Positions 3,868 through 20,489 of a DNA stretch of 21,657 bases are shown piece after piece; within the stretch, counting starts at the first letter, position 1; every line of letters begins with the position of its first letter. The stretch lies in the IMG/VR virus record IMGVR_UViG_3300044825_000328, positions 1 through 21,657 of that record, one strand, 5' to 3'. A program made the position numbers and the translations under genes. The notes below the pieces were generated by a model. It was not told the origin of the DNA. It saw only the letters and a list, made by a program, of their open reading frames with translations, and did not search any database. The stretch comes from a virus.

Positions 3868-5789
3868 TAGCGCCGTCCGTCCTCTCGTGCGTCTAAGCGC
3901 GGCGCACCCAATTGCCACTGGACGCCGAGGTTCTCGGACTGGATTTTAAACGCCATCTGGCGCGCTCGCGCACGCATGAAGACCTGATCGGTATACCGGT
4001 CGACCGAGGTTTCTACGATGATTTTGCTGTCGCTTGGGTTGCTTGAAAGCGCCGAACCCGGGAAGTTACGCGCACGAATTTGCATATCAACTGCCGGATT
4101 TTCAGCCGTAGACCCACTAAACCCGACGTCAGGGATAATACGCCGAGAGAGCATAAACGCATCACCATCAGCCAAATCAAAGTCTGATGACTGAATATAC
4201 GACACCATTGGGTTAGTGTCGTCGTCGATGCCTTCCTCGTGGTTATAGGCTTGGCCTGCTGCAAAGTCCGAAAGCGGCGTGTTGGTAGCCTGCGGATAGC
4301 GGCGCAGCGGTGTATCCAACCAAGCGGTGCGCTCGATTGTTCCGTAATACCAGATTTTCTCAAGGTGGTTATAGACCACATAAGCATTGTTGTAGTCGGC
4401 TTCGCCCGCAGGGTAGAACCACCAGACTTCGTTCCACTGCTCGTTCGTGCCGCAGATAACCTGATCGGACTGCGCCATGTTGAGGTTCTGGAAGACATGG
4501 TTACGCAGCGTGCAAGGCAGCGTTTCGACACGGCCCGTATAGGCGTAAAACTTATCTTGGCCCATCCAGTAGGTAATATTAGCCGCCGTTGCCATCGCGC
4601 GTGAGGACATGACCGAGATATTATCGGCGTATTCCTGCAAGCCAAACACGTCTGTCGTACCAAGGAACTGAAGCGTGTAGAGGTGGCTATCGGTCCAAAC
4701 CAAGATTTCCTGACGTGACGGCAAAGCGCGCACGATGCGCGAACCACGAGATACGCGGATATCGCCAGCCGTATTAAATTCTGTCGGTGTCCAGTCAGCA
4801 GGCGTGTCTTGGTCTGCCCAACGAATGAGCATCGGATCAAAATCGTCAGGGTTAGTAGACCCGAACGGAACTGCGCCAAAGGCAATCAGGTGCCGATCTT
4901 GCTGCGACACAAGCAACTGCATAATTTTAGCGGGTACAGCATTGGGGTCGAAACTGTTCGCCGTCGCATACGCTTGTAGCGTAATAGCCCGTGCGCTGAG
5001 CGCCGTCCCCGGATCAGGCAAAGTGCCGCGAGCCCACCAATAAGGCGCACCGTTGCGGATATTCATGACGAGGTCGTTGTCGAAATTATCAAACCACCAG
5101 TCACGCTGCTGGAAGAAGATCGGCTCGTTACCGCCCAGACCCCAAGCACCACGTGACCACGTGCCCGTACCCCAGCCATAGCCCGCAGTTGTGATTGGGT
5201 ATCCGGGACGGATTTCAAAATCGAGGGTAATAGCAGTGCCGCCAGCCCCGCTGGTTTCATTTGACGTAACTTGGGTTGTCACCGGAATCGTGAAAGCAAC
5301 ACCGTTAACTACGGTTAGTTCATGGTTGCCATTGATCTCGGAGGCAGGGACGCCACCAATAGTGCCAACTACGCCTGAGATTTGTACGAAGTCACCCGTC
5401 TCTGCATCGTGCGCCACAGGAAGTTCAATCTGCACCACATAGGGTGCAGTTGTATCCGTATAGACGCAGTTATCCGTGTCCGGCGTAGAGAACGTCGGAT
5501 TAAGCGGACGAAGCGGCGTGATGTTATTGTAGTAGCCACCATTCTCGATGTAGACCTTCTGGTGCGTACCAAGCGCCATGAGGTTATCAGAATAGGTCGT
5601 CACCCAGTTCCACAACTGACGGCATACACCTTGGAAAAGCTGAGACGTGTACTTCTGCCAACCGCCAATCTTCTCAGGATAGCCAGAACGGAAGCGGATT
5701 TTGTCACACTCCCACCAGCCGCCCTCGTTCGAGTAATCGGTCTGATCTCGATTCACGCCCGGCTTAAACTGGAGCTTGATGAATGGCAT
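3867..5789 (-). CDS. Tail hub/nozzle-like beta-propeller structural protein
   Basis: 640 aa, with AGGAG 7 nt before the ATG; the SD overlaps the TAG of the upstream gene. The protein starts MPFIKLQFKPGVNRD and contains EGGWWECDKIRFRSGYPEKI (about 22-41), a frequent opening of short-tailed and aquatic phage tail proteins. A Trp-rich segment (GWGTGTWSRGAWGLGG, then WWFDNFDNDLVMN) is followed by successive beta units such as ILVWTDSHLYTLQFLG, ITYWMGQDKFYAYTGRVE and NEVWWFYPAGEADYNNAYVV. This repeat layout resembles the beta-propeller hub/nozzle proteins of short-tailed phages (P22 gp10, T7 gp12). That match is by architecture, not alignment. An insert near residues 118-190 (HDAETGDFVQISGV, INGNHELTVVNGVAFTI) looks like a separate small beta domain. 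It is expected to sit between the adaptor ring and the fibres. Confidence 0.85.
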   Translation of the reverse strand: MPFIKLQFKPGVNRDQTDYSNEGGWWECDKIRFRSGYPEKIGGWQKYTSQLFQGVCRQLWNWVTTYSDNLMALGTHQKVYIENGGYYNNITPLRPLNPTFSTPDTDNCVYTDTTAPYVVQIELPVAHDAETGDFVQISGVVGTIGGVPASEINGNHELTVVNGVAFTIPVTTQVTSNETSGAGGTAITLDFEIRPGYPITTAGYGWGTGTWSRGAWGLGGNEPIFFQQRDWWFDNFDNDLVMNIRNGAPYWWARGTLPDPGTALSARAITLQAYATANSFDPNAVPAKIMQLLVSQQDRHLIAFGAVPFGSTNPDDFDPMLIRWADQDTPADWTPTEFNTAGDIRVSRGSRIVRALPSRQEILVWTDSHLYTLQFLGTTDVFGLQEYADNISVMSSRAMATAANITYWMGQDKFYAYTGRVETLPCTLRNHVFQNLNMAQSDQVICGTNEQWNEVWWFYPAGEADYNNAYVVYNHLEKIWYYGTIERTAWLDTPLRRYPQATNTPLSDFAAGQAYNHEEGIDDDTNPMVSYIQSSDFDLADGDAFMLSRRIIPDVGFSGSTAENPAVDMQIRARNFPGSALSSNPSDSKIIVETSVDRYTDQVFMRARARQMAFKIQSENLGVQWQLGAPRLDAREDGRR

Positions 5790-5799
5790 CTCTTAGCTC

Positions 5800-6585
5800 C
5801 TATGGCTGCACATACTGAAGGGTAACGGAACCATCCGCTGAACCAACGTCAATGTAGTACTGCTGTCCCGGTGTTACCGGTACATAGCTTGCGGTGGTTA
5901 CGAACTGTTGTCCCGGAGATGTACCGCCCGCTGCTGTGTAGCCAAATGCAGACGAAGATGTGCCGTTAGACGCAGACCCCGGGTAGAAAACTTCAACGCC
6001 AATGTACCAACCATCGCCAATCCCACGAACTGGATCACCGCTGCGGTTATCCCACGGGCCAGAAGCACGAGAGGCCGTACCGCGAATACGGTACGACTGG
6101 AAATCACTGAAATTGTAATACCCGTTCGTGTTTGAGTTATAGTAGCTAGTATTTGGGGCAATCGTTACGTTGCGGTCCCCACTCCCCCCAGAGTTCATCT
6201 GAGACAAGATCGAGTCCGCCGCTGCACCGGCTTGATAATATGCGTAGAACGCGGAAGGGCTACCCGCCTCGGCAAAGCCTACCTGAGAATAAAACCCATA
6301 AATATTGGTCGTGTAAATCCATTGGTCCGGCGTAGAGCTATACATACCGCCGTAGACTTCAAGGTTCACAAGGTAAAATACGCCCGCAGGGCACGTCCAG
6401 TAGTTAGAGCCAAAGAACGTAGCCGTCTGATAAACAGGCGGAGGCGGAGGCGGCGGTGGCGGCCCCGGAGGAGGTGGCGGTGGCGGAGGAGGCGGGGGAA
6501 CCGGAGGTATAGGTGCAGGCGGGATATAGGCAAAAGCCCCGGCCCCTCGTGCGCTTATTCCTCCTCGTGAGATAATGACTGGCAC
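5800..6585 (-). CDS. Polyproline-linker tail protein with C-terminal beta domain
   Basis: 261 aa from a GTG at 6585, with AAGGGGG 6 nt upstream and 11 nt after the stop of the fibre gene. An in-frame start at 6717 would overlap that gene by about 120 nt and has a basic, unlike N-terminus, so GTG is preferred. The product starts MPVIISRGGISARGAGAFAY, then a proline linker (residues 22-50) with runs of 11 and 9 consecutive Pro split by one Gly. After it comes NYWTCPAGVFYLVNLEVYGG, a variant of the beta module YTVPAGVTSIRVYAFGAGG in the fibre at 16017-17387. The end (VTPGQQYYIDVGSADGSVTL) also parallels VTPGQTVTITISSGNVTVSY there. It is likely an accessory tail-tip or receptor-binding protein on a rigid stalk. 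Confidence 0.82.
   Translation of the reverse strand: MPVIISRGGISARGAGAFAYIPPAPIPPVPPPPPPPPPPPGPPPPPPPPPVYQTATFFGSNYWTCPAGVFYLVNLEVYGGMYSSTPDQWIYTTNIYGFYSQVGFAEAGSPSAFYAYYQAGAAADSILSQMNSGGSGDRNVTIAPNTSYYNSNTNGYYNFSDFQSYRIRGTASRASGPWDNRSGDPVRGIGDGWYIGVEVFYPGSASNGTSSSAFGYTAAGGTSPGQQFVTTASYVPVTPGQQYYIDVGSADGSVTLQYVQP
6436..6498 (-). repeat. Proline-codon simple repeat (CCN)n
   Basis: Twenty Pro codons interrupted by one GGG (Gly) at 6463-6465. They use CCT, CCG, CCA and CCC, so the repeat is imperfect at the DNA level, which limits slippage but still gives a C-rich coding strand and a G-rich opposite strand. It encodes a polyproline II linker between the N-terminal tail and the beta domain. Confidence 0.9.
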
Positions 6586-6591
6586 TATGCG

Positions 6592-6598
6592 CCCCCTT
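6592..6598 (-). promoter_or_regulatory. Ribosome binding site deciding the GTG start at 6585
   Basis: AAGGGGG on the minus strand lies 6 nt before the GTG and overlaps the TAA stop (6597-6599) of the preceding fibre gene. No ATG in the same frame lies near it, so this site sets the start of the polyproline protein. Confidence 0.7.
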
Positions 6599-7520
6599 AA
6601 ACAAACTTGGTTTGCGAGGCGAATACCGTGTAGGTCGCGCTTCCAGTCTTCAGCACCGTATAAGTATAAGCGTCGATACTGGATGTGTTGCCGACGGAGG
6701 GCACTGTACCCTGCCATTTAGGTGTAAGGGTAACGCCATCGACTTGTACAACGTTATTATAGTATCCAACCGCGCCGATAGTCGCAAAGACTGCGATGGT
6801 GATAGCCTGCCCCGTTGCCAACAACGAATTGAGCGTTGTGGTGCCATCGCCGCGAATATTGATCGTCCAGTTAGCCGTAGCGTTTGTCGTGTAGAAAAGC
6901 ACCGACTGCGTAATCGCGTCTACGTTGATCGTCCCAGTAGCGCCCGAACCCACAACAGTCGCCGTCTCAATGGCATAGGCGAGAGGCTGAAGCGACGTGA
7001 TATCCGTGTTAGTTCCCGACTTAGCAGCACTAATGGTGGAGCGTGCGCCCGCAGCAGTGTTTGAACCCACACCCCCCGAAGCGAGCGGGAGGGGCGTCCC
7101 AAGTGTGAGCGACGTAAGATGGGTCGTAGCATCCACTACGTCAGTGCCGTTGTTGTAAACCCACATGGTCTTACCCGCCGGGACGGTAATACCCGCACCC
7201 GCAGCCGTCTTAACCAGCACGCTATCTGCGCAGGTGTTATTGATGATGTAGGTCTTCTCGATGCTGGGCACCACAAGGTTACGGGTCGAGCCACCAGTAG
7301 TGCCGATCAGGTTCAAACGCAGGTTACGTGCGGTTTGCGTCGTGTTGGTGTTGGACAAAGTAAGCGTGACGTTAGCACTAGCAAAGGTGACATCCGCTGA
7401 GCCGACAACGGCCTCTTCAATAGCAGTGCCAAGGTTGACGTTCGTGACGTTACCCCACGTGGCGAGGTTCTCGCCCGTTGCCATAAGCTGGAGTTTGAGA
7501 TTGCTATATGTGCTCGACAT
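6597..7520 (-). CDS. Phage tail fibre-like structural protein
   Basis: 307 aa; ATG 7520 with AAGGA six nt upstream, joined to the TAA of the previous gene (TAAGGACTGAAGATG). The N-terminal half opens MSSTYSNLKLQLMATGEN and continues with TWGNVTNVNLGTAIEEAVVG, a widespread phage fibre/collar module that I recognise from many tailed phages. Beta-rich text follows (SADVTFASANVTLTLSNTNT, NLRLNLIGTTGGSTRNLVVP), then the linker LTLGTPLPLASGGVGSNTAA near 138-157, which parallels ALAQPLPVSSGGIGATSLAA in the fibre at 16017-17387. The C-terminal third (WTINIRGDGTTTLNSLLATG, ITIAVFATIGAVGYYNNVV) is a beta domain. It likely forms part of the adsorption apparatus; no chaperone or enzyme motif is seen. Confidence 0.88.
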   Translation of the reverse strand: MSSTYSNLKLQLMATGENLATWGNVTNVNLGTAIEEAVVGSADVTFASANVTLTLSNTNTTQTARNLRLNLIGTTGGSTRNLVVPSIEKTYIINNTCADSVLVKTAAGAGITVPAGKTMWVYNNGTDVVDATTHLTSLTLGTPLPLASGGVGSNTAAGARSTISAAKSGTNTDITSLQPLAYAIETATVVGSGATGTINVDAITQSVLFYTTNATANWTINIRGDGTTTLNSLLATGQAITIAVFATIGAVGYYNNVVQVDGVTLTPKWQGTVPSVGNTSSIDAYTYTVLKTGSATYTVFASQTKFV

Positions 7521-7529
7521 CTTCAGTCC

Positions 7530-8273
7530 TTACGTCGGTATTTCTGTCCAGTTTGGCGTTTGTGCATCGTTGATTACGCTCCAAACAAGTGCAGAAGTAA
7601 TTGCGCCGTTACCTTGTACTCCGGTTGGGTATACACGCATATTGATCGCAACAAAAGGTGTCCCAGTCTGGCCGGTTGCCTGTACCCCTGTGGGTCGCAC
7701 GCCGCTTGCGTAGCGGATAGTCCCAGTTTGCCCGGTGCCTTGAACGCCTGTAACTTCGAAGTTGGCATCTGCACTGATTGCAACAGTACCAACCTGACCG
7801 AAGCCACTTACGTCATCTTCGATAACTATGCCGTAGGCGATAACGCTGGACTGGCCGATTTCACCGGTTGCCTGCGCTCCTTGAAGGAACACTTGGGCAT
7901 TTGCTTGGGTAAGGACGGAGCCAACCTGACCGACACCCTCAACACCATCTTCAATAACGATAGCGTCGGCATCAATAACAACCGGCTCAACATAACCAGT
8001 GGCCGAAAGACCAGCAACGGTTACAGAACTCGTGGGACGTACATCCCCAAGTTGGCCTGTGCCTTGGACACCAGTTACATCAAAATTAGCCGCAGCACGG
8101 ACAAGGACGGTGCCAATTTGTCCTGTACCGCTAACCCCACTGACAAAGTAGAAAACGCCCGCATCAGCGGTGCCAAGTTGGCCGGTCCCTTGGACACCAG
8201 TCAGTTCGACATCAACGTCTACGATGCCAAGGGCACCAAAGGCGGCAGCAGCAAATGGGGATGTCCCTAGCAT
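7530..8273 (-). CDS. Protein made of ten 20-22-residue Gly-Val repeats
   Basis: 247 aa. ATG 8273 has a G-rich sequence (AGGGGG) 9 nt upstream. After MLGTSPFAAAAFGALG the protein is ten tandem units of consensus V-x-G-V-x-G-T-G-Q-x-G-T-V, with unit starts near residues 26, 46, 68, 88, 110, 132, 154, 176, 196 and 218 (spacing 20 or 22). The unit alternates a beta strand (ANFDVTGV) and a glycine turn (QGTGQLG), suggesting a stacked beta fold. The C-terminus (SVINDAQTPNWTEIPT) is outside the repeat. It is probably a virion surface protein lying between the lysis cassette and the fibre gene. The function is unknown. Confidence 0.85.
   Translation of the reverse strand: MLGTSPFAAAAFGALGIVDVDVELTGVQGTGQLGTADAGVFYFVSGVSGTGQIGTVLVRAAANFDVTGVQGTGQLGDVRPTSSVTVAGLSATGYVEPVVIDADAIVIEDGVEGVGQVGSVLTQANAQVFLQGAQATGEIGQSSVIAYGIVIEDDVSGFGQVGTVAISADANFEVTGVQGTGQTGTIRYASGVRPTGVQATGQTGTPFVAINMRVYPTGVQGNGAITSALVWSVINDAQTPNWTEIPT
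7599..8198 (-). repeat. Ten coding repeats of 60 or 66 bp
   Basis: These are the DNA units behind the GVQGTGQxG protein repeats. They are diverged, but some units keep close identity around the core, for example CCTTGGACACCAGT read on the plus strand near 8050 and 8190. Unit lengths are multiples of two short beta periods. The preserved frame and divergent codons indicate protein-level selection after old duplications. Confidence 0.75.
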
Positions 8274-8293
8274 ATCCTACTGCCCCCTAAGGC

Positions 8294-8473
8294 TTAGCCG
8301 CCGAGAAATTCAGAACCCGCAGCGGCAATCGCTGCGATGGTGGCGAGAATGCCAGCCAGCTTAGCTTTCCATCCGAGCTTGGGTTTATCACCGTCCATCG
8401 GCAAAATCTTGTTAGTGGCTTCCTTGACGACCGCCTTCTTCACGGCCTTCTCTGCCAGTTTCTTCAGGTCCAT
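8294..8473 (-). CDS. Small membrane protein, candidate holin
   Basis: 59 aa, MDLKKLAEKAVKKAVVKEAT onwards. ATG 8473 has a strong AAGGAGG 5 nt upstream that begins in the stop codon of the endolysin gene. The first 40 residues are amphipathic and Lys-rich (about 12 Lys). Residues 38-52 (AKLAGILATIAAIAA) form one hydrophobic helix, and the end is GSEFLGG. Size, charge, single hydrophobic segment and position next to the endolysin fit a small holin or holin-accessory protein. The hydrophobic stretch is short for a membrane span, so peripheral insertion is also possible. Function is inferred from context. Confidence 0.75.
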   Translation of the reverse strand: MDLKKLAEKAVKKAVVKEATNKILPMDGDKPKLGWKAKLAGILATIAAIAAAGSEFLGG

Positions 8474-8478
8474 ATTGG

Positions 8479-8485
8479 CCTCCTT
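8479..8485 (-). promoter_or_regulatory. Strong Shine-Dalgarno fused to a stop codon
   Basis: AAGGAGG overlaps the TAA (8484-8486) of the endolysin gene and lies 5 nt before the ATG of the 59-aa protein. The arrangement should couple translation of the two products and supports the small gene being real. Confidence 0.75.
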
Positions 8486-9095
8486 ACAGCCAAGAAGCGA
8501 ACTTCTTGGTCTTCATTTTACGGTCTTCGAGACCGTGGGTTCCACCATTAATGCGTTTTGTAAGCTGCAAGATGGCGGCGTCTGTGATGCCTTGGTCGCA
8601 GATCGACCAGAGCTTATTCTTATCAAAGAACCACAAGGCGCTCTCAAATGCCAGTTCGGTAGCCACCAGATCGGGGTTCGTCATGACATCGGGGCGACCG
8701 ATATAGTCGGCAAACGCTTGGTAGTTGAATTTGCCAGTGAGTTGGAGGGCACCCCTGCCGCGAAAAGCGAAACCTTCGCCCGAGCTTTCCGGCCCATTAC
8801 CCATGCGGTTACCATAGACGCGGTTAGCAATCTTGGCAGGCTGGCGCGCATAAGCGTTCGCCAGTTCCGCTGTCGGAAAATACTTACCGAAAATATTGCG
8901 TAAGCCTTGCGCCGAGTAGTTCAGGTTCTCGGAGAACGCCTTAAAGCCGCCACTTTCGTGCGCCGTTTGGGCGAAAAAGTGGGCAGCGCGGTTACGGTTC
9001 AACTTATAATAGTTGGCGGCGGCCTTAAGCGTGCCGGGGCCAAAAGCCCCGTCAGCCGTTACACCGATCTTTTGTTGGAGATTTACGAGGCTCAT
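8484..9095 (-). CDS. GH19-type endolysin (chitinase-fold muralytic enzyme)
   Basis: 203 aa. The start is ATG 9095, which overlaps the upstream TGA in ATGA and has GGAGGA 10 nt upstream; the TTG at 9113 is rejected. It cleaves the glycan strands of peptidoglycan to release progeny. A short N-terminal segment (LQQKIGVTADGAFGPGTL, 6-23) looks like part of a peptidoglycan-binding repeat. The catalytic domain shows HFFAQTAHESGGF (39-51) with the likely acid Glu47, then SENLNYSA (56-63) with Glu57, and RGRGALQLTGKFNY (112-125), the substrate-cleft motif of family GH19. Layout and length resemble the Salmonella phage SPN1S endolysin. There is no signal peptide, so a holin is needed; membrane proteins lie on both sides. 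Confidence 0.93.
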   Translation of the reverse strand: MSLVNLQQKIGVTADGAFGPGTLKAAANYYKLNRNRAAHFFAQTAHESGGFKAFSENLNYSAQGLRNIFGKYFPTAELANAYARQPAKIANRVYGNRMGNGPESSGEGFAFRGRGALQLTGKFNYQAFADYIGRPDVMTNPDLVATELAFESALWFFDKNKLWSICDQGITDAAILQLTKRINGGTHGLEDRKMKTKKFASWL

Positions 9096-9589
9096 TTGTT
9101 CGGGTTCCTCCAATCGGGGAAGTCATTCTCGTCGACCACGCCGTCACCGTTGGCATCGTAGCGCAGATCGTGCCGATGGATTTCCCAAGGCTGCAACTCA
9201 CCGTCACCGTTCTCATCAAACGGCTCGTCCAGTTCCATAGCAGGTTCTTCCTTCTTGGCGAAGAAGGTTTCCTTAGGTTCTTCCTGATCGGTATCAACGT
9301 CGTTCACAACCGACACATTGACCGGGGCTTCAACCGAAGCTGCCATGTCCGGCGCTTCTTGCTTGTCAGCCTTGAAACCCATCATAGCTGCGTAACCACC
9401 AGTGATTGCGCCAGCCACAGCCGTCACAATGTAGCTCAGAAGAGTGAAGACCTTCTCGTTATCGACCAGTTCGTTAGGCGTAAACAAGCCGACGATGAGC
9501 GCCAAAACAACAGCGACAAAGCTGCCGGACAGGGAATAGGCTGCAATCAGCAGAACCTTAATGCGTGCGTCGAGGAGTTTCTCTTCCAT
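9092..9589 (-). CDS. Two-helix membrane protein with paired EF-hand loops, candidate holin
   Basis: 165 aa; ATG 9589 overlaps the preceding TGA by one base (TGATG), and its own stop overlaps the endolysin ATG. Two hydrophobic helices are visible: about 11-35 (KVLLIAAYSLSGSFVAVVLA onward) and 48-70 (FTLLSYIVTAVAGAITGGYA). A charged, disordered-looking linker follows. The C-terminus has two canonical 12-residue EF-hand loops: DENGDGELQPWE (125-136) and DANGDGVVDEND (145-156), each with Asp/Asn at positions 1, 3 and 5, Gly at 6 and an acid at 12. Two membrane spans next to an endolysin fit a class II-like holin. The calcium-binding pair is unusual for that role. Alternatives are a lysis regulator or a membrane anchor. 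Confidence 0.88.
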   Translation of the reverse strand: MEEKLLDARIKVLLIAAYSLSGSFVAVVLALIVGLFTPNELVDNEKVFTLLSYIVTAVAGAITGGYAAMMGFKADKQEAPDMAASVEAPVNVSVVNDVDTDQEEPKETFFAKKEEPAMELDEPFDENGDGELQPWEIHRHDLRYDANGDGVVDENDFPDWRNPNK

Positions 9590-10104
9590 CAGTTATCCCT
9601 TTCGGCCAGCGGGTTCGCCAGCGTTTTGGTAATCTTGTCGTTGACCTGAGCCTCCAACTCCTTGACGCGGCGTTGCTGCTCTAAGTCCTGCGCTCGTAGC
9701 TCTTGTATAATAGCACGCTGAGATTGCAATGTCTCCCTCTCAGATACTTGCGTGCGCGCAGTGACTGCATCGACGGTCTGTCGGGTACTCATGACGCTAC
9801 TGCCAACGCTGCTAGAGAGGGCTGCGAGGTTGTCGGACAGGTACTTGGTAGTCTCCAAGTTCATACGGATCATGCGCTCATTGCTGTCTTGGCGCTCCTT
9901 CATTTTATTGAACTCGTCGCCCATAGACGCGTAGGTCTCAGTAACTTCCTTCATGGTCAGGAACTGCTGGTAAACCTCGAAACCTGCCCATAGAGAGCCA
10001 GCCGCCGTCGAAAGCGCGGTCAGCACAATCATCATCTTACCGCCAGTAAACTTAATCCCGCCGACCTCAATGGAGGTGCCTTCGGGCTTCTCCTCGTCAC
10101 TCAT
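9589..10104 (-). CDS. Single-span coiled-coil membrane protein, possible inner-membrane spanin
   Basis: 171 aa. The start is ATG 10104, in an 8-nt overlap (ATGAGTGA) with the upstream gene; an earlier start at 10146 lacks support. The first 23 residues are polar. Residues 24-42 (MMIVLTALSTAAGSLWAGF) form one membrane helix. The rest is almost entirely predicted helix with heptad-like pattern, especially QSQRAIIQELRAQDLEQQRR and VKELEAQVNDKITK near the end. Topology (N-terminal span, long coiled coil) and location just before the lysis genes resemble i-spanins such as lambda Rz. No partner lipoprotein with a lipobox Cys is seen, so the spanin assignment is tentative. Confidence 0.85.
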   Translation of the reverse strand: MSDEEKPEGTSIEVGGIKFTGGKMMIVLTALSTAAGSLWAGFEVYQQFLTMKEVTETYASMGDEFNKMKERQDSNERMIRMNLETTKYLSDNLAALSSSVGSSVMSTRQTVDAVTARTQVSERETLQSQRAIIQELRAQDLEQQRRVKELEAQVNDKITKTLANPLAERDN

Positions 10105-11551
10105 ACTGCTCGTCCACCATCTGCTGCCAGCGAGCGTCTTGTCCACTCAATAGCCTGTATAATGCCATATTTTGGTCCGGAATGCGACGGCCTTTGTAGA
10201 TATCCTTCGGTTGGTAGAAGGGCATATCTGGGATGCGCGCCTGCGTATAAGCACCATAACCCTCCGGAACCGCAGCTAACTGCGCCATCGCTTCCTTATC
10301 GCTCTCGTTTACGTCGCCAATATCCTTGGGTTCTCCAGTCGCCATGTCGGCCTGCATACCCAGCAACTCCATCTGCTGAGCTTGACCTACGGGCGTTGAG
10401 AAGTCCCCCATCCCCGTTTGTGGTGCAGGCGCGAACGTCGGCCCCTCAGTCGGCCCAAGATTATAGGTTACGCCACTAGTTTCCGTCGTGCTTTGCTCAC
10501 CATATTGCTGCGCATACTGCACATCGGCTTGAGCCACAAAAGCCACGTTTTGCGCCGTTACTTGCAACACGGTCTCACGCGGGAAGTAAGCTGCGTCCTC
10601 GACGGCTTCGCTCTGGAAGAAGTCTACATTCCGGTCTTTGCGAGACACCACTATGGTGTTTTCTGTAGATGCAGAAATTCCCGGGGGGCCCGGAAGCAAG
10701 CCGGGCGGAGGTGGCGGATCGTTGGCGTCCTCGGCTGGTTCTTCCTCGACGGCTTCTTCAGTTACCGCTTCGGTTGCACTTTCCTCGACCACAGCTTCTT
10801 CTGGGGCTGCTTCAACTTCTGCCTCGATCACGGCGTCTACCGCAGCTTCAGCCGCTTCAATCTGCTCTTCTTGGTCAGGTATGGTTACTTCCAAGGGGTT
10901 AGGCGCAGGTGTTGGCGCTGGCGTAGGAGCCACAGAAACGGGAGAAAAGGTAGGTTCAGGCGCGCTTGGTGTTAACAAACCCGACTGAAACGAAAGGTTC
11001 TGCACGTTGGTGCCGTAGAAAAGCTGGATGTTATCCGTAGCCGCAGGCCCCGTAATCCCGGCGGAAACCGTGTGGAAGGTATTTGCCAACGAGCCGTAAT
11101 TGAACTGGATACTGCCAGTGGCCGAGAGGTTAATCTCAAAAGTGACTTTATTCTGCGTGCCATACTCTGTGGTGTTGTACCAGCCAAAGAGCGCCGACGT
11201 ATCGGTCAGCTTATAGTAGGGGTTTGCCCCACCAAACAAATCCGTCCAGTAGCCGTAGATCGTGTTGCGCTGCGCGTATTCGAGCGGCTCTCCGTCGCAG
11301 CACAGGTTGCCCGGCCCATAAAAGGACACAAAGCCATTGGAGGAAACCCACGCCGACGTGAATGTTTGGCCGTAATAGGTAAATGGAAAGCCAAGCTGCA
11401 CGAGGCGCGTACTATCATCTCCTCCATTCAGAGGCGTCATGGTTTGCGGAGAACCAAGGATTTGTGGCGGGATCAGCGTTGGGTCATAGTCTTGCGCCCA
11501 TGCAGGCCATGCGATCAGCGCCGCGAGGAGGATTTTGCTTTTTCTTCCCAT
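10097..11551 (-). CDS. Exported phage protein with NIDO-like beta domain and acidic/proline-rich linker
   Basis: 484 aa; ATG 11551 with AAGGAGG 10 nt upstream, overlapping the upstream gene by 37 nt. The N-terminus is a clear Sec signal peptide: basic MGRKSK, hydrophobic ILLAALIAWPAW, and likely cleavage after AWA (residue 19). Residues about 45-190 form a beta sandwich with LGFPFTYYGQTF (53-64), WVSSNGFVSF (68-77), GYWTDLF and ITGPAATDNIQLFYG, the pattern of nidogen-like (NIDO) extracellular domains; Cys84-Cys85 are adjacent. Residues 195-290 are a Pro/Ala/Glu-rich low-complexity linker. The C-terminal 190 residues hold a second block (ENTIVVSRKDRNVDFFQSEA, then PFYQPKDIYKGRRIPDQN). Export by the host implies a periplasmic or surface role, perhaps lysis or superinfection control; no known function is recognised. 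Confidence 0.88.
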   Translation of the reverse strand: MGRKSKILLAALIAWPAWAQDYDPTLIPPQILGSPQTMTPLNGGDDSTRLVQLGFPFTYYGQTFTSAWVSSNGFVSFYGPGNLCCDGEPLEYAQRNTIYGYWTDLFGGANPYYKLTDTSALFGWYNTTEYGTQNKVTFEINLSATGSIQFNYGSLANTFHTVSAGITGPAATDNIQLFYGTNVQNLSFQSGLLTPSAPEPTFSPVSVAPTPAPTPAPNPLEVTIPDQEEQIEAAEAAVDAVIEAEVEAAPEEAVVEESATEAVTEEAVEEEPAEDANDPPPPPGLLPGPPGISASTENTIVVSRKDRNVDFFQSEAVEDAAYFPRETVLQVTAQNVAFVAQADVQYAQQYGEQSTTETSGVTYNLGPTEGPTFAPAPQTGMGDFSTPVGQAQQMELLGMQADMATGEPKDIGDVNESDKEAMAQLAAVPEGYGAYTQARIPDMPFYQPKDIYKGRRIPDQNMALYRLLSGQDARWQQMVDEQYE

Positions 11552-12396
11552 GCCGCAGCGGCCTCCTTACCGATCTTTCCTTCGTACGGGCAGGGGGTCC
11601 CGGCCATCTTCATGGCGTCGAATACACGTTGATCCTGACAAAGCAGCGACACAGCCGCTACGCGCATACCCATATCATATAGGGTTTTGCTGAGCTTTAG
11701 GGCTTCGCAGTTCTTGTCTCGAATAGTTTTGCCACCAGAGATACCAAGGATTTGCGTCTGCACAGCGCCAGATACGCCAGTGGTGCAGAGGTCTTGGCTG
11801 TAGCTCATCATGCTCGGCGCAATCGCGCTAGGGGGCGGCGACGTAATTTTCTGGGTCACGCTCTGCGTGCTGTCCGACACGCTCACCGACTTGCTATCGT
11901 TGATGTTCGTGTTTTGATTGACGTTGGTGCTCTCAGATGTGCTGATCGAGCTATTCTGGTTCACATTTGTGCTAACCGCAGTCGAATTGCTCTGGTTTAT
12001 GTTTGTGTTGACGTTTGTCGACACGCTCTCACTGGTCGATACATTGGTATTGAGGTTGGTGGACGTGCTCGTCGATGTAGACGTGCTATCGTTGAAATTC
12101 CGGTTCGTATTCAAGTTCGTCGAGGTCGACGTACTCTCGTTGAAATTGCGATTGGTGTTGAGATTGGTGCTGTTAACCGTGCTATTCGTGGTGCTGTTAA
12201 CAGTCTGATTAATAGTGCTGGTGGACGTGTCGGTGTTGACGTTAATGTTTGTCGCCGTACCAGACTGGATATTGTTGTTCGTGTTGACGTTGGTGTTCGT
12301 CGAAGTCGCAGTAGTGTTATAGTTCGTCGTAGTCTGGGCAAGCGTCATACTCGCCCAGCCAGTTGCCACCAATACGAGAAACCGCCGATTAATCAC
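11515..12396 (-). CDS. Exported Thr/Asn/Ser-rich protein with four-cysteine C-terminal domain
   Basis: 293 aa from a GTG at 12396, which overlaps the previous TGA (GTGA). The Sec signal peptide is MINRRFLVLVATGWASMTLA, with cleavage likely after Ala20. Residues 21-180 are low complexity, nearly all Thr, Asn and Ser with Val/Leu at intervals, including a duplicated unit TNLNTNRNFN (77-86 and 93-102). Residues 185-293 form a compact domain that starts SPPPSAIAPSMMSYSQDLC and includes ALKLSKTLYDMGMRVAAVSL and GTPCPYEGKIG. The mature protein has exactly four Cys (204, 230, 253, 269), all here, as expected for disulfides outside the cytoplasm. It is not a lipoprotein. The stalk-plus-domain design suggests a surface or periplasmic role; function is unknown. 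Confidence 0.88.
   Translation of the reverse strand: MINRRFLVLVATGWASMTLAQTTTNYNTTATSTNTNVNTNNNIQSGTATNINVNTDTSTSTINQTVNSTTNSTVNSTNLNTNRNFNESTSTSTNLNTNRNFNDSTSTSTSTSTNLNTNVSTSESVSTNVNTNINQSNSTAVSTNVNQNSSISTSESTNVNQNTNINDSKSVSVSDSTQSVTQKITSPPPSAIAPSMMSYSQDLCTTGVSGAVQTQILGISGGKTIRDKNCEALKLSKTLYDMGMRVAAVSLLCQDQRVFDAMKMAGTPCPYEGKIGKEAAAAWEEKAKSSSRR
11562..11568 (-). promoter_or_regulatory. Internal Shine-Dalgarno inside the upstream coding region
   Basis: AAGGAGG lies within the last part of the Ser/Thr/Asn-rich protein gene, 10 nt before the ATG at 11551. It shows that the second exported protein is started independently and is not a frameshift product. Confidence 0.7.
11857..12336 (-). repeat. 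Thr/Asn/Ser low-complexity coding repeat
   Basis: This is about 480 bp of ACN/AAY/TCN/AGY-rich coding DNA with short near-repeats of TNLNTNRNFN and TNVNTN type. The reading frame is intact throughout, so it is a coding stalk and not a non-coding satellite. Confidence 0.7.
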
Positions 12397-12662
12397 TCTG
12401 GGAGTTCAGGCCAAACGATATCGTTGGGGAACCCTTCTTGCGCTGGTACGTCCCGCAGAGCTTGGCGATAAATTTTGTACGCATCTCGGATCGCCTTGGG
12501 GACGTCAGGAAGCTGGGTCCAGTCAGTGTCCTTCAGCAGGTTATTACGCTGCTCGCGGATACCGCTTTGCTTCATAGCCTCATGCTCTACCCCAAGAGCT
12601 TCGTATGCAGCAATTTCGTCTGCGTCCATGTCCATCAGGACGCCATCAACCATCTTTTTCAT
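12393..12662 (-). CDS. Phage tail-fibre assembly chaperone-like protein
   Basis: 89 aa if started at ATG 12662, one base after the TAA of the large fibre gene (TAATATG). Upstream ATGs at 12683 and 12677 would overlap the fibre gene and remain possible (up to 96 aa). The N-terminal half (MVDGVLMDMDADEIAAYEAL) is acidic. The C-terminal half, RNNLLKDTDWTQLPDVPKAI, RDAYKIYRQALRDVPAQEGF, then VWPELPE, is the signature of phage tail assembly chaperone proteins (TDW..L.D.P......Y RQALRD....GFP...WP). It follows the fibre gene directly, the usual position for a fibre-folding partner. Confidence 0.9.
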   Translation of the reverse strand: MKKMVDGVLMDMDADEIAAYEALGVEHEAMKQSGIREQRNNLLKDTDWTQLPDVPKAIRDAYKIYRQALRDVPAQEGFPNDIVWPELPE

Positions 12663-12663
12663 A

Positions 12664-14970
12664 TTAGCCGATCCCATAGACACTGATTGTACCGGTACCC
12701 CAGTATGTACTGCCGCCGCCCGGTGAAATTGTAAGGCTCGACGGATAAGAAGATACGTATCCAGTATTTAAAGTGGCGTTAGCTCCCGACGAAGTAGACG
12801 ACGTATTAAACGCGCATGTAAACGCGGGAGTAGACGAGGAAGCGGTATTAATAGTTAAATACCCGTTAAAAGTGGCGTAGTCCGAAGCAGTGACAGATGA
12901 CCCCTGCGGGTATAAGGTACCGGCTGTGGCAAACCCTGAAGCAGTACTTGTGCTATTAGCTATTAGGCCGTGGCCGTAGAATGCAATAGATGATCCGGCA
13001 GAGGTGACACCCGTAATGATAATATATTGTCCTCCCGTCCGAACTTGGAGCCCGTTGTATATAATTTGTACTTGCTGATATCCGGTGGGTAAACTCACCG
13101 TGACCGACGCGGGGTTCCCAGAAATAGTAGTCTGGGAGACAAGTTTCATAAATGCGCCGCCAGTCGTTACTTGGATAGACGTCGCGCTCAATGCCCGAGC
13201 TACAACCCCGTAGGGTGTAGTTGTTGTAACCAGCGTACCGTCGTAGCGCAAATAGTAAGCAGTGGCGGTCGTTAACCCAGTTTGGTTTGAGTTAACTCCC
13301 CCTAGGATCGTAACGGTAACTGGCTGCCCAGTAGAGACGGATTGCGTTGCAAAACCAACAAACTTATCTGCGTTTGACGAAAATACTTGGGGTAGAAACC
13401 CTATAAGTTGGGCGTTGTTTCCAGACCCACGCGCACCAATCGCACCGCGCTGGTTAGTCGGGTCATAAGTAATACCCGTACCCACAGGATAATAAGACGA
13501 GCTATTAAGCGAAGTCCCGCCATTATATGTCATAGTGGATGCTGTTAGCGTAATAGACCACACCGCAAGAACAGACGATGTGCTACCGGCGATGTATATT
13601 ACGTTATTGGTAGTATCGGGAGAAGAGTAGAACCCGTAATTACCCCAGTTCTGCCCTGCTGATGACGGTGAAGAGCTATCGCCCGTAACTTGGCTACCCG
13701 ACCCGTTAAACATATAGCTGTACGGAGAGCCAAAAGGAGCAAACTGGACAATAAACCGATCAATACTCGGAAAATAATAAGCCCGAGTATTATAGTAGAA
13801 ATTACTGGAGTAGGGGATTGTCTGGGAACCAATTGTCATCGTAGCGCCATCGGCGCTGAGCGTGATTGTCCGCGTAGCCATGTAGTTATTAGATGGGTCG
13901 CTATAGAATACACGCCCCGCATTCGAAGTGCTATTAAATGCAGCGCAGCACGTAGCATTATTATTGTTATAAAACGAAAAGGTTTGGTTTGCCGTAACGG
14001 TTGGCGACCCGCTGTTGTAGTTAATAGCGTTCGCGTAAAGCCCGCCATTTGTATAGTTATAAATGGCTACCATACGATTAGCGTAGCTATCGTAGTACAT
14101 ATCAAACGCAAAATAGTTATACATGGCCGACCCCAGAGTAGTCGAACCCGCGCCTGACGTAGCACCCGTGGTAGTATTCAAACTAAAATAATATACTTGT
14201 ACAGCTTGATAGCCCCCGCCGGGAGCGAACATAACTGCAAACCTATTCGCTGTCGTATCTTTAGCTATAGCTGCTCTCTGGTCATTTACGCTGCCATTGT
14301 TGCCAATATACGTCGCGTTAGTATTAGTTATCACGCCAGCCGAGCTAACTTTAAACGTATAGAGCCAGCGATTTCCGCTGCTGTCCCAGCTTACTTGAAA
14401 GTGCCATCCCGAGGCAGCGTCATAAAGACCCGCACCTGTGTAGCTATTACTTGAATAGAGGTTAGTTGCGTTAAAAGTAGCATCTTGGCTAATACCCGTA
14501 GTCGTAGACACGGTGCCGTTTGTATTGATCGAAACGGCCTGACCTGCCGTGATGGAACCAGATGAAGTGAACTGCTGGGTGCCACTAGAAGGCGTAGCAA
14601 AAGCAAGCTGCCCCGAACCGTTGGTCTGGAGGAACTGACCCGAAGTGCCGTCTGCCGTAGGCAATGTCAGCGTGTAATCCGCTGCAAGAGTATCCGGTGC
14701 CTTAATGGCTGCGTAGTTTGTACCGCTCCCAGTGGCTTCGCCTAGACGGATTTGTGCGCCGCTTGCGCCGCCAGCAATAAGGGCGGGAGAAGTAAGGCCC
14801 GTCGTTGAGTTCAGCGCACCCGTAACCGTAAGATTGCCTGCGGTAGTTACGTTAGCCCCAGTGAGCGTAACTGCCGTGATACCACCCGACTGAAGCTGGA
14901 GAACGCCAGAAGTATCCCCCGTGATAATCGCACCGCCAGTGGAGGTATCTGCGTTAATGGTTGTGGGCAT
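12664..14970 (-). CDS. Tail fibre with seven-unit beta-propeller-like insert
   Basis: 768 aa; ATG 14970 with GGAG upstream. Residues 1-60 (MPTTINADTSTGGAIITGDT) are a common fibre N-terminus. Residues 99-127 (YTLTLPTADGTSGQFLQTNG) match the module in the fibre at 15002-15748. Residues about 190-530 contain seven units, each beginning D/N/P-x-x-x-N-R-like: DSSGNR (196), DTTANR (238), DSYANR (294), NSTSNAGR (346), PSIDR (401), DTTNN (452) and DPTNQR (503), spaced 42-56 residues, as in a seven-bladed propeller. Then FVGFATQSVSTGQPVTV and GLTTATAYYLRYDGTL form a typical fibre module. The end (SVYGIG) matches RVYGIKNT of the neighbour. It is followed by its chaperone-like partner. Confidence 0.9.
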   Translation of the reverse strand: MPTTINADTSTGGAIITGDTSGVLQLQSGGITAVTLTGANVTTAGNLTVTGALNSTTGLTSPALIAGGASGAQIRLGEATGSGTNYAAIKAPDTLAADYTLTLPTADGTSGQFLQTNGSGQLAFATPSSGTQQFTSSGSITAGQAVSINTNGTVSTTTGISQDATFNATNLYSSNSYTGAGLYDAASGWHFQVSWDSSGNRWLYTFKVSSAGVITNTNATYIGNNGSVNDQRAAIAKDTTANRFAVMFAPGGGYQAVQVYYFSLNTTTGATSGAGSTTLGSAMYNYFAFDMYYDSYANRMVAIYNYTNGGLYANAINYNSGSPTVTANQTFSFYNNNNATCCAAFNSTSNAGRVFYSDPSNNYMATRTITLSADGATMTIGSQTIPYSSNFYYNTRAYYFPSIDRFIVQFAPFGSPYSYMFNGSGSQVTGDSSSPSSAGQNWGNYGFYSSPDTTNNVIYIAGSTSSVLAVWSITLTASTMTYNGGTSLNSSSYYPVGTGITYDPTNQRGAIGARGSGNNAQLIGFLPQVFSSNADKFVGFATQSVSTGQPVTVTILGGVNSNQTGLTTATAYYLRYDGTLVTTTTPYGVVARALSATSIQVTTGGAFMKLVSQTTISGNPASVTVSLPTGYQQVQIIYNGLQVRTGGQYIIITGVTSAGSSIAFYGHGLIANSTSTASGFATAGTLYPQGSSVTASDYATFNGYLTINTASSSTPAFTCAFNTSSTSSGANATLNTGYVSSYPSSLTISPGGGSTYWGTGTISVYGIG

Positions 14971-14984
14971 GGGTTATTCTCCGA
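14968..14984. repeat. 17-bp direct repeat at fibre start, copy 1
   Basis: The plus-strand sequence CATGGGTTATTCTCCGA covers the ATG and SD region of the propeller fibre. It is identical to 15746-15762, and after one mismatch the next three bases (TGC) also match. In copy 2 it overlaps the end of the 84-aa gene; here it lies in the 31-nt gap. Confidence 0.85.
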
Positions 14985-15001
14985 ATGCGACAGTTTTGGT
15001 C

Positions 15002-15748
15002 TTAGGTGTTCTTGATGCCATAAACGCGAATACGTCCTTGAGCAGCAAAGTTACCTCCGCCATTATCAAGGAAGAATGTTACCCCAGATAGGGCGCTACT
15101 GCCACTATAAACCCACATTCCAGCGTAAGAAAGGATCGTGGTGTCTGATGGGGTTTGGTAGAGTGCGAAGATTTCCCCGGTCTTCCATCCGCTTCCGTTG
15201 GCATTATGCAGACGAATATAGCCCGTAAAGCCATTCCCCGTTGAGTCCAGCGTGCCTGAACCCATGAGCAAATTTGCGCTCGTCGCGTTAAAGGTAAGGT
15301 TTGCTATGCTAGGTGTAGCAGAGCGATATGTATTTGCGCTCGACTGGGCACTCCCCCCAACCGCCACCCGCATATTTAACGTGCGCCCAGAACTTGCAGG
15401 CATGATGCTCTGCAAAGTGATGAAGTAAGTGTCGTAATCTGCGGTAAAAGTATTCAAAAAGTCCACGTTTGCGGCAGCCGTAGGGGCAGTATCCGCGAGA
15501 AGGATCATCGCACCCGCAGCAGGCGTAGCAAAAGCCAACGTACCTGAACCGTTCGTTTGTAAGAACTGCCCGTTTGTACCGTCAGCACTCGGCATCGTAA
15601 AGGTAAGGTCAGCAGCCATAGATGCCGCCGCTTGGATCGTAACGGTGTTTGTCCCATTACCCGTCTGTTCCGCAAGGCGAATACGGCCCTGAGTAGAAGC
15701 CGCGCCGTCTACTGTAATGATACCGTCGCCGTTGATAATCGTGGACAT
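15002..15748 (-). CDS. Tail fibre-like protein, short paralogue
   Basis: 248 aa; ATG 15748 with GGAG upstream inside the end of the previous gene. The N-terminus MSTIINGDGIITVDGAASTQ and residues 65-93 (DLTFTMPSADGTNGQFLQTN) parallel the propeller fibre downstream. The C-terminal 150 residues form a beta domain (DFLNTFTADYDTYFITLQSI, NMRVAVGGSA, FTGYIRLHNANGSGWKTGEI) ending in RIRVYGIKNT, close to the SVYGIG ending of the neighbour. It looks like a fibre with the same two ends but without the propeller insert. It is probably a receptor-binding or branch fibre subunit. Confidence 0.87.
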   Translation of the reverse strand: MSTIINGDGIITVDGAASTQGRIRLAEQTGNGTNTVTIQAAASMAADLTFTMPSADGTNGQFLQTNGSGTLAFATPAAGAMILLADTAPTAAANVDFLNTFTADYDTYFITLQSIMPASSGRTLNMRVAVGGSAQSSANTYRSATPSIANLTFNATSANLLMGSGTLDSTGNGFTGYIRLHNANGSGWKTGEIFALYQTPSDTTILSYAGMWVYSGSSALSGVTFFLDNGGGNFAAQGRIRVYGIKNT

Positions 15749-15762
15749 GGGTTATTCTCCGA
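15746..15762. repeat. 17-bp direct repeat at fibre start, copy 2
   Basis: Identical to 14968-14984. On the minus strand it reads TCGGAGAATAACCCATG: the last codons and stop (Gly-Glu-TAA) of the 84-aa gene plus the start of the next fibre. The copy in the 31-nt gap keeps the same text without the gene. Confidence 0.85.
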
Positions 15763-16006
15763 GTGCAGCGATTTGTGCCTGAAGCTCTTCAAGTTTAGCA
15801 AGCAGGTCTTCTTTGGTTGGCGCAACGTATTCTGGAAGCTCAACCGGAGAAGGCGGAGAGAAATTCTCCCCGTCAAACTCCCAATGAAAATCCACTTCGT
15901 CAGGAGCCTCAACGAACATATCCGCATAAGCCGGATGAAAAATCCCATGCGGGGGAACCTGAGCCCGGTCTTTAACGACGCCATTCTCAATGTAGACCCA
16001 AACCAT
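15752..16006 (-). CDS. Small fibre-assembly-like protein with C-terminal coiled coil
   Basis: 84 aa; ATG 16006 with AAGGA 8 nt upstream, the SD starting in the TAA of the glycine-rich fibre. Sequence: MVWVYIENGVVKDRAQVPPH, then FVEAPDEVDFHWEFDGENFS, a Pro-rich link, and a short helix EDLLAKLEELQAQIAALGE. The pattern 'F..AP.EV..GW.FDG..F.PP' followed by a coiled coil is common in small proteins next to phage fibres, including tail fibre assembly proteins. It probably helps fold or attach the fibre encoded just upstream or downstream. Confidence 0.82.
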   Translation of the reverse strand: MVWVYIENGVVKDRAQVPPHGIFHPAYADMFVEAPDEVDFHWEFDGENFSPPSPVELPEYVAPTKEDLLAKLEELQAQIAALGE

Positions 16007-16016
16007 GTTTTAGTCC

Positions 16017-17387
16017 TTATGCGTAAATCAAGACAATGGCAGAGCCAGCGGTGCTGAAGGCGTATGTATTATACGGCCCTGAGGTTGTTGCCGTAGACGA
16101 CCCAGCCCCAAATCCAGACGCACCCATAGTGAACGATCCACTACTCGCGGCGCTATAAGCTCCACCTCCGGCAGCGCCGAACCCGCCAGCGCCTGTGCCA
16201 ATCGTATTTGAGGATGAACCCCCATTGTAGCACCCACCGCCACCGCCGCCAAAGCCGCCATTCCCACCGTATAGAGCATAGCTGCCGTTCGCGTTGTTTC
16301 CTGCTCCAGCGCCACCAGCACCGGGACCGCCCGTCGCACCATACATAAGTTGAGCGTTAGAGTCTTGAGCGCCAAGTACACCCGGGGATGTCAGAGACTG
16401 CAAAAGGGGATCAGTATAAAGCTGATATCCACCACGACCATCGCCGGGCCTAAGCGACGTGGCCGCGCCGCCAGCACCGCCGCTGGGGCCGAAACCACGG
16501 TATGATGTTGGGGGGTCGCCGCCTTGAGCGGTCCCCCACCCAGCGCCAGCCCTTGATCCACCCGCCGTGCCATTTCCAAGTGGGGAAGCACTTGATCCCC
16601 CCGAGACTCCTTGGTTTACGGCGCCTCCGGAACTCCCTGCGCCTCCAGTATAAGCACCGCCATTGGTCACCCCGGTACCAATAGTTGCGGTGCCGCCCGC
16701 GGCAGCATTAGGGCTGCTATAGGGCGTTGTGGCGTTTGCGCCTTTGTTGGCCGTAAACCTTGTAACAGCGGCATAGGAAACTGTGACATTACCACTTGAG
16801 ATTGTGATTGTTACCGTTTGTCCCGGAGTAACCGCCAAGTCTCCGTATGCACATCCACCACCTGCGCCACTAGCAAGATAATAATATATTGAGCCGTCAT
16901 ATTCCGCAGTGGCATTACCGCCAGCGCCAAACGCATAAACGCGAATTGAGGTAACTCCGGCTGGGACGGTATACGTGCTAGAAGAAGTGTAAGATGACCA
17001 CGTTTTTGTTGAAGTTGTTACAGCCTGACTAACCCAAGTCGTGCCATTACTCGTTAGTACGTTCCCGCTGGCACCGGGAGCCACGACCTGAACCGCCGAA
17101 GTGCCGTTGCCTAACAAAACATTGTTTGCTGTAAGCGAAGTAGCGCCAGTTCCACCCTGCGCTACGGTAACAGCGGTGCTGGAAGTCAAAATACCCGCAG
17201 CAGCCAGACTTGTCGCCCCAATACCCCCCGAAGAAACCGGGAGTGGTTGAGCAAGCGCAACGACTTGGTTTGTACCAATCGTCATGGCAGTCGTCGTGCC
17301 ATTCGTCTGGAAAACGAGTGTGCCGGTTGTATCCCCGCTGGTGACGAGAGCAGTACCGCTTGTCGTGCCTGCCGAAATGGTGCTCAT
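16017..17387 (-). CDS. Tail fibre with C-terminal glycine-rich receptor-binding-like domain
   Basis: 456 aa; ATG 17387 with AAGGAG 7 nt upstream, joined to the previous TAA. Residues 1-60 open MSTISAGTTSGTALVTSGDT and continue with a linker ALAQPLPVSSGGIGATSLAA (45-64) repeated as VTVAQGGTGATSLTANNVLL (73-92). Residues 129-158 (TWSSYTSSSTYTVPAGVTSI, then RVYAFGAGGN) are a beta module also present in the polyproline protein. Residues about 230-430 are dominated by Gly (GGAGSSGG, GGNGGFGGGGGG, GAGGFGAAGGGA). Such sequence can form packed polyglycine helices, as in receptor-binding adhesins of T-even phages (gp38). The end is STAGSAIVLIYA. Confidence 0.9.
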   Translation of the reverse strand: MSTISAGTTSGTALVTSGDTTGTLVFQTNGTTTAMTIGTNQVVALAQPLPVSSGGIGATSLAAAGILTSSTAVTVAQGGTGATSLTANNVLLGNGTSAVQVVAPGASGNVLTSNGTTWVSQAVTTSTKTWSSYTSSSTYTVPAGVTSIRVYAFGAGGNATAEYDGSIYYYLASGAGGGCAYGDLAVTPGQTVTITISSGNVTVSYAAVTRFTANKGANATTPYSSPNAAAGGTATIGTGVTNGGAYTGGAGSSGGAVNQGVSGGSSASPLGNGTAGGSRAGAGWGTAQGGDPPTSYRGFGPSGGAGGAATSLRPGDGRGGYQLYTDPLLQSLTSPGVLGAQDSNAQLMYGATGGPGAGGAGAGNNANGSYALYGGNGGFGGGGGGCYNGGSSSNTIGTGAGGFGAAGGGAYSAASSGSFTMGASGFGAGSSTATTSGPYNTYAFSTAGSAIVLIYA

Positions 17388-17397
17388 CTATCGCTCC

Positions 17398-19329: not shown

Positions 19330-19338
19330 CTACCTACC

Positions 19339-19701
19339 TCACATCAGGTTACGGAGCTTGTAGATCGTTGTGAGATAAACGTCCGTGACCCCATCAATGA
19401 GGTTGGCTACTGCACGGTTGCCCTTGCAAATAGCCTCGTGGTTTTTCTCGATCCACTCAGCATCTTCGATCAAAATAAGCAGGATTTCATCCGCCTTGGT
19501 TTTGGGGGCTTTGATGGCCCCCACCAGTTCAAATGCACCCTGATACGCCTCAACAAGCTTGTCGATGGCGTCGATTACCCCATCGTAGAACTCACCGAGT
19601 GCTTGATGCCGCGCATACGCACCCACCCCACTGGCAGTCCAGTGCTCAAAGTGAGCTACGTTACGAGCATAAAACACTCGGCTGATAAGTTCTTCGATCA
19701 T
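19339..19701 (-). CDS. Dps/ferritin-like helical protein
   Basis: 120 aa; ATG 19701 overlaps the TAA of the preceding gene by one base. The protein is all helical (MIEELISRVFYARNVAHFEH, LGEFYDGVIDAIDKLVEAYQ, ILLILIEDAEWIEKNHEAIC, DVYLTTIYKLRNLM), consistent with a four-helix bundle. The segment HFEHW...YARHQALG...ID.LVE.YQG follows the Dps pattern: His20, His32, Asp47 and Glu51 have the same spacing (12, 15, 4) as His51, His63, Asp78 and Glu82 of E. coli Dps; the fifth ligand (Asp67) is Gly36, with Glu37 next to it. I believe this type is listed as an uncharacterised phage family (DUF5856), from memory. Dps proteins oxidise and store iron and protect DNA. It is shorter than Dps (about 165 aa), so cage formation is not assured. 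Confidence 0.85.
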   Translation of the reverse strand: MIEELISRVFYARNVAHFEHWTASGVGAYARHQALGEFYDGVIDAIDKLVEAYQGAFELVGAIKAPKTKADEILLILIEDAEWIEKNHEAICKGNRAVANLIDGVTDVYLTTIYKLRNLM

Positions 19702-20189: not shown

Positions 20190-20196
20190 TGTAGGT

Positions 20197-20202
20197 CTCC
20201 TT
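20197..20202 (-). promoter_or_regulatory. Ribosome binding site deciding the TTG start at 20189
   Basis: AAGGAG lies 7 nt before TTG 20189 and overlaps the TAA (20201-20203) of the preceding gene. No ATG is at a proper distance (Met7 is 25 nt away), so TTG is the likely start. Confidence 0.75.
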
Positions 20203-20488: not shown

Positions 20489-20489
20489 A

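Follow-up and report, generated by a model that had tools for sequence, protein, structure and literature searches.

The window analysed here is the 21,657-nucleotide stretch at positions 1 to 21,657 of the IMG/VR virus record IMGVR_UViG_3300044825_000328. Its late genes lie on the minus strand and encode tail-fibre-like proteins, a tail assembly chaperone, three proteins called A, B and C here, a holin-like protein and a GH19 endolysin. A first-pass annotation, made from the sequence, had singled out A and B as two consecutive overlapping genes for exported proteins. Both open reading frames (ORFs) were confirmed, as were their overlap of exactly 37 nucleotides (nt) and the GTG start of A, which shares bases with the TGA stop of the chaperone gene as GTGA. 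Gene C overlaps B by 8 nt. Together the three genes form a conserved module with the following features.

11515-12396, minus strand: gene A, 293 amino acids, GTG start; signal peptide, stalk rich in N/S/T and 4-Cys domain
12337-12396, minus strand: signal peptide of A, MINRRFLVLVATGWASMTLA followed by Q, without lipobox (from the sequence and the signal rule)
11833-12336, minus strand: low-complexity stalk of A, about 69% N/S/T
11557-11832, minus strand: 4-Cys domain of A, a putative envelope domain with homologues also in alphaproteobacterial chromosomes
11515-11551, minus strand: overlap of A and B, 37 nt (ORF coordinates)
10097-11551, minus strand: gene B, 484 amino acids, ATG start; signal peptide, beta-sandwich, acidic/Pro linker and conserved C-terminal helix
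11495-11551, minus strand: signal peptide of B, MGRKSKILLAALIAWPAWA followed by Q, without lipobox (from the sequence and the signal rule)
10952-11494, minus strand: exchangeable N-terminal domain of B, a beta-sandwich, 'NIDO-like' by eye (AlphaFold2 and cassette swap)
10325-10951, minus strand: linker of B rich in acidic residues, Pro and Ala (sequence; predicted local distance difference test score, pLDDT, mostly <55)
10100-10324, minus strand: conserved C-terminal region of B, FYxPKDIYK....D......QY (homologue alignment)
9589-10104, minus strand: gene C, 171 amino acids, third module member; predicted cytoplasmic N-terminus, one transmembrane segment, periplasmic coiled coil and NPL end
9607-9615, minus strand: invariant NPL motif near the C-terminus of C (homologue comparison)

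Linkage and distribution of the module

Relatives of A were first fetched from IMG/VR. To guard against circularity the searches were repeated with the C-terminus of B alone and with C alone, the C query including one pelagiphage C beside IMG/VR sequences, and hidden Markov models (HMMs) of A, B and C were run over all loci. The repeat searches returned at least 600 rows each, and the families number in the hundreds. The following linkage counts refer to the best 80 loci of each search, which are the closest relatives and include many near-duplicates. Where enough flanking sequence was available, A and C were both detected by HMM in 59 of 59 loci ascertained through B. In the loci ascertained through C, A was present in 60 of 60 and B was recognised by HMM in 52 of 60; in the other eight, reading by eye revealed a B that is short and diverged. 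The order and strand of the three genes did not vary across the loci, and A and B overlap by some length in 168 of 181. The proposed co-occurrence of A and B in phages was thus borne out and the two genes do belong together, but the pair is not the whole unit. C is linked as tightly as A and B, and the unit is a trio.

The A-B-C order occurs on hundreds of IMG/VR phage contigs, ranging from 32-kb cultured SAR11 phages to contigs of more than 300 kb. Annotated carriers of the Cys domain of A are the Pelagibacter phages HTVC202P, HTVC115P, HTVC033P, HTVC023P, Mosig and Baldr, and Roseobacter phage CRP-207. Both the annotated phages that were read out and the IMG/VR loci have, after A, an exported B-like protein, mostly with the conserved C-terminus, and then C, either directly or after a few genes. 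The neighbourhoods surveyed with PHROGs are highly varied and contain genes for holin, endolysin, DNA metabolism and structural proteins, among others. The module is found in phages that differ greatly in size and gene context, and it behaves as a mobile cassette. No description of it was found in the literature searched, subscription journals being outside its scope. The module is new by its architecture and may still serve a known purpose.

The gene context also bears on a possible link of the three proteins to virions or their assembly, in which they would cross the membrane and, for example, decorate particles at release. Their position in the window, between tail-fibre and chaperone genes and the lysis genes, would suit such a role, as would the structural genes that adjoin the module in some loci. 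However, many loci lie among DNA-metabolism genes, and signal peptides of the cleavable type together with conserved cysteines are what one expects of periplasmic proteins, while assembly of tailed phages takes place in the cytoplasm. We regard this explanation as very improbable.

Some relatives have further genes within the module. At L234:4699-5967, and also in loci L239, L261-L264, L267 and L283, three extra exported proteins of about 165, 124 and 135 amino acids are encoded between B and C. Their pilin/chaperone-like appearance by eye gained no support from matches in Pfam, in PHROGs with a function or in the PDB. Distant relatives of the third protein occur in about 90 phages, most of them of Vibrio; in Vibrio phage Achelous the relative is encoded near holin and M15 peptidase genes.

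Protein A and its cellular relatives

Export was assessed with a simple, permissive sequence rule that accepted any start and asked for a basic n-region, an uncharged hydrophobic core and small residues at positions -3 and -1. By this rule, 205 of 208 untruncated homologues of A and 198 of 203 homologues of B have a signal-peptide-like start, against a background of 43 of 215 (20%) when it was applied to the remaining ORFs of these loci. A lipobox was found in none of the A homologues and was not visible in A of the window; three B homologues have a possible lipobox, and none is visible in B of the window. The signal peptides without lipobox that had been described for both proteins are therefore well supported.

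The reading of A as a Thr/Asn/Ser stalk with a four-Cys domain also held. The stalk varies from 17 to 388 residues among homologues, with only weak tandem repeats in its DNA, and the domain cysteines C16, C42, C65 and C81 are invariant in 46 homologues. Residues 122-292 of A match phrog_20531 (E=2e-17, PHROGs v4 profile search). No sequence relatives of the domain were found in the PDB, and a Foldseek search of the PDB gave no match with a weak model (pLDDT only 67.5).

In 126 of 205 A homologues, A of the window not among them, the last ~20 residues form a hydrophobic tail (e.g. KKIGLGALLGALVFKLF). The DNA for this tail is also the DNA for the signal peptide of B in another frame, the usual A-B overlap being about 62-74 nt. 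A role of the tail as a membrane anchor was dropped for this reason, since the tail may be a by-product.

Species genomes scanned for relatives of A yielded 46 loci, about half of which are phage contigs binned into genomes. The homologues in L117-L134, except the phage-like L122, share 38-48% identity and come from alphaproteobacterial contigs. L124 is the complete Hyphomonadaceae chromosome CP096134.1, and its homologue matches phrog_20531 at 7e-29. The chromosomal neighbours, with names read from the sequence, we take to be housekeeping genes, e.g. crotonyl-CoA carboxylase/reductase; neither B nor C was seen beside the chromosomal copies inspected. The cellular relatives consist of a signal peptide, an N-rich or collagen-like stalk and the 4-Cys domain. 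An OmpA domain (PF00691, 2e-16) is fused to the Cys domain in L130 and L133, and in L117 and L118 the A-domain gene is followed by a collagen+OmpA gene. In Pfam searches PF00691 was matched only in the cellular relatives and not in A, B or C of the window. Because cellular relatives are fused to or located beside OmpA domains, the 4-Cys domain of A is suggested to act at the cell-wall (peptidoglycan) layer.

The cellular proteins themselves (L117:8945-11845, L118:5422-7875, L130, L133 and L124) are uncharacterised and possibly belong to a cell-surface structure of Hyphomonadaceae-type bacteria.

Exchange of the B head

B varies in length from about 300 to 860 amino acids among homologues. Its C-terminal region is conserved, with Y, Y, Y, D and QY invariant in an alignment of 22 divergent homologues, and the acidic linker noted in the first-pass annotation is present. 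The N-terminal domains, in contrast, fall into two main families of 143 and 49 sequences that have no sequence similarity to each other. Loci L014 and L017 are 88% identical in DNA over A and the signal peptide of B, cannot be aligned over the following ~490 nt, and are again 88% identical across the remainder of B and C. The same break pattern was found in further locus pairs. A, the remainder of B and C thus stay colinear while the head of B is exchanged. Exchange of the head only is the pattern of a ligand-binding domain under diversifying pressure, and the head is probably a binding domain with changing targets.

AlphaFold2 predicted a confident beta-sandwich at residues 21-196 of B in the window (pLDDT ~90). 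The suggestion that this is a NIDO-like domain found no support in profile searches, and NIDO membership was rejected on that ground: Pfam had no family for B of the window at E<=1, and NIDO (PF06119) was not matched at E<=0.05 among 35 B homologues. No PHROG or Pfam family was found for B in the window or in the divergent members tested. Foldseek gave no PDB match for the head, and the best VIA-align score was Z 5.3, to lyases and mutarotase-like folds, where Z ~5 is uninformative. Matches in BFVD were to uncharacterised phage proteins only, including A0A879R3E6 of Synechococcus phage S-SRM01 (E=2.4e-5).

Adhesion or aggregation is an alternative: with B shown on an infected cell or on what is left of it, that cell or debris would stick to other cells, particles or matrix, so that new hosts are near at burst. 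The modular heads of B resemble extracellular beta-sandwiches, the collagen-like stalks of the cellular A-domain relatives resemble bacterial adhesins (NCBIfam Scl/Lcl, driven by low complexity and below cut-off), and the three additional exported proteins of some relatives would also fit. Yet phage A and B gave no match to known adhesin families and no export route across the outer membrane is visible, and a device of exactly this kind appears unlikely.

Membrane protein C

C has a short charged N-terminus, a hydrophobic segment at about residues 24-45 and a coiled-coil-like region after it. From this we infer a single inner-membrane segment with a cytoplasmic N-terminus and a periplasmic coiled coil. 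Conserved features are a motif I.IGG..FT..KL before the transmembrane segment, an aromatic motif past it and the invariant NPL end. Profile searches gave only weak coiled-coil matches, and sequence matches in the PDB were limited to coiled coils and similar helical proteins.

The gp73 protein of phage CRP-207 (L006:3292-3873), a 'putative lysozyme' in GenBank, resembles a membrane coiled-coil protein of the C family and is likely misannotated.

Neighbouring genes and the question of lysis

The genes next to the module in the window are the following.

12393-12683, minus strand: tail assembly chaperone gene (PF16778, E=3e-22); upstream neighbour, outside the module
9092-9589, minus strand: holin-like protein with EF-hand-like tail (weak matches only); downstream neighbour, outside the module
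8484-9113, minus strand: GH19 endolysin (profile matches); downstream neighbour, outside the module

The EF-hand-like calcium-binding tail of the holin-like protein (DANGDGVVDENDF) is kept in relatives, and EF-hand-like and membrane segments are also combined in CRP-207 gp72 and in one L078 protein. The slot after the endolysin encodes a 59-residue membrane protein in the window (8294-8473) and an Rz-like gene in L013 (L013:8811-9318), L020 and L026, an overlapping lipoprotein o-spanin gene being recognised in L013. Upstream, at 12664-19329, several apparently paralogous tail-fibre-like genes follow one another (19329-17398, 17387-16017, 15748-15002 and 14970-12664), their low-complexity N-terminal parts being related.

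The position of the module next to a lysis cassette, emphasised in the first-pass annotation, is correct for the clade of the window but is not usual among the loci. Of 34 non-redundant loci, only 8 had lysis enzymes within ~4-5 kb, a count from the fetched flanks with three seed enzymes only and probably an undercount. A lysis-stage role has several points in its favour. C has the i-spanin topology of a cytoplasmic N-terminus, one transmembrane segment and a periplasmic coiled coil (compare PMC6139136), as far as can be judged from its sequence, and A and B could tie it to the wall or the outer membrane, so that after endolysin action the envelope would be torn or the membranes fused. In the window A-B-C directly precedes the holin-like gene and the GH19 endolysin, and a heuristic scan of the minus strand at ~3000-21000 found no o-spanin-like lipoprotein ORF. 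An M15 peptidase follows C in pelagiphage HTVC023P, and the lysozyme annotation of C in CRP-207 points the same way.

Several observations argue against such a role. The close relative L013 has A-B-C, a holin-like gene and a GH19 endolysin together with a gene for an Rz-like i-spanin and, overlapping it, one for a putative o-spanin, a lipoprotein that matches Rz-like spanin families (phrog_456, 2e-7). The envelope disruption during lysis that had been considered for A and B is weakened by this arrangement. Swapping of the B head is unexpected for a lysis protein, the size range of B is unlike that of described spanins, and the module is mostly found away from lysis enzymes. A lysis-stage function is accordingly rated as improbable. 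Identity as a two-component or unimolecular spanin was rejected: neither A nor B of the window has the lipobox of an outer-membrane lipoprotein partner, A lacks both the lipoprotein signal and the hydrophobic C-terminal tail of a unimolecular spanin, and L013 has its own Rz/Rz1-type pair beside the module.

Proposed function

An envelope or surface role, as superinfection exclusion or surface decoration, remains the best class of explanation. Our tentative preference is that A, B and C are subunits of one phage-encoded envelope complex, most likely for superinfection exclusion. In this mechanism C would be fixed in the inner membrane with its coiled coil spanning the periplasm. Exported A would place its 4-Cys domain at the cell-wall layer, the polar stalk acting as a spacer. 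B, also exported, would be held by its conserved C-terminal helix, most likely via A and/or C, and its exchangeable beta-sandwich would bind a ligand at the outer membrane or close to it. An infected Gram-negative cell would thereby have its surface or its receptors altered and competing phages would be kept out, the swapped heads matching different receptors. The conserved trio, the export signals identified by the sequence rule, the head swaps and the OmpA-linked cellular A homologues are observed; the physical complex, its display site, its ligand and its purpose are inferred.

Superinfection exclusion is favoured over lysis because of head swapping, the frequent distance from lysis genes and the coexistence with spanins. 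Adhesion ranks just below superinfection exclusion and is nearly as likely. Some points weigh against the proposed exclusion complex. Interaction of A, B and C, surface exposure and an effect on superinfection are all predictions of the model. No HMM matched the B head and no structural match to it was convincing, so that ligand binding is read from its fold class and the swapping. No route across the outer membrane is visible for A or B, and the complex could therefore be wholly periplasmic. A role in lysis would account just as well for the placement of the trio immediately ahead of holin and endolysin in the clade of the window.

More speculatively, the module may represent an undescribed, widespread adhesin or exclusion organelle, i.e. 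a three-protein apparatus anchored in inner membrane, wall and outer envelope that would show a swappable receptor-binding head on the infected cell. One domain of it, the 4-Cys domain of A, is shared with alphaproteobacterial chromosomes. The phages that infect SAR11, the Roseobacter group and freshwater bacteria belong to the most abundant ones known, but their copies of the trio are annotated only as hypothetical proteins. It offers a testable handle on phage remodelling of the Gram-negative envelope, whether for superinfection exclusion, adhesion or as a new lysis aid, and the head swaps provide a natural set of interchangeable binding domains. In Hyphomonadaceae-type bacteria, the cellular relatives of A suggest a surface system associated with OmpA that is as yet uncharacterised.

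Comparison with known systems

The nearest described family, phrog_20531, matches the C-terminal part of A; it has no function and covers neither B, C nor the module. The OmpA-linked proteins of Hyphomonadaceae-type bacteria are like phage A in the order of signal peptide, low-complexity stalk and 4-Cys domain, but phage A has no OmpA domain, whereas in some of them one is present in the protein or next to it. Rz/Rz1 spanins resemble the module in the i-spanin topology of C, in overlapping genes and, in the window, in the position beside a holin-like gene and endolysin. The module differs from them in having no lipoprotein partner, in comprising two large Sec-exported proteins and in being located usually away from lysis genes. 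Superinfection exclusion proteins that act at the envelope, such as T5 Llp and T4 Sp/Imm, are small single proteins. Their likeness to the module concerns only a possible purpose, that of exported or membrane proteins blocking later infection.

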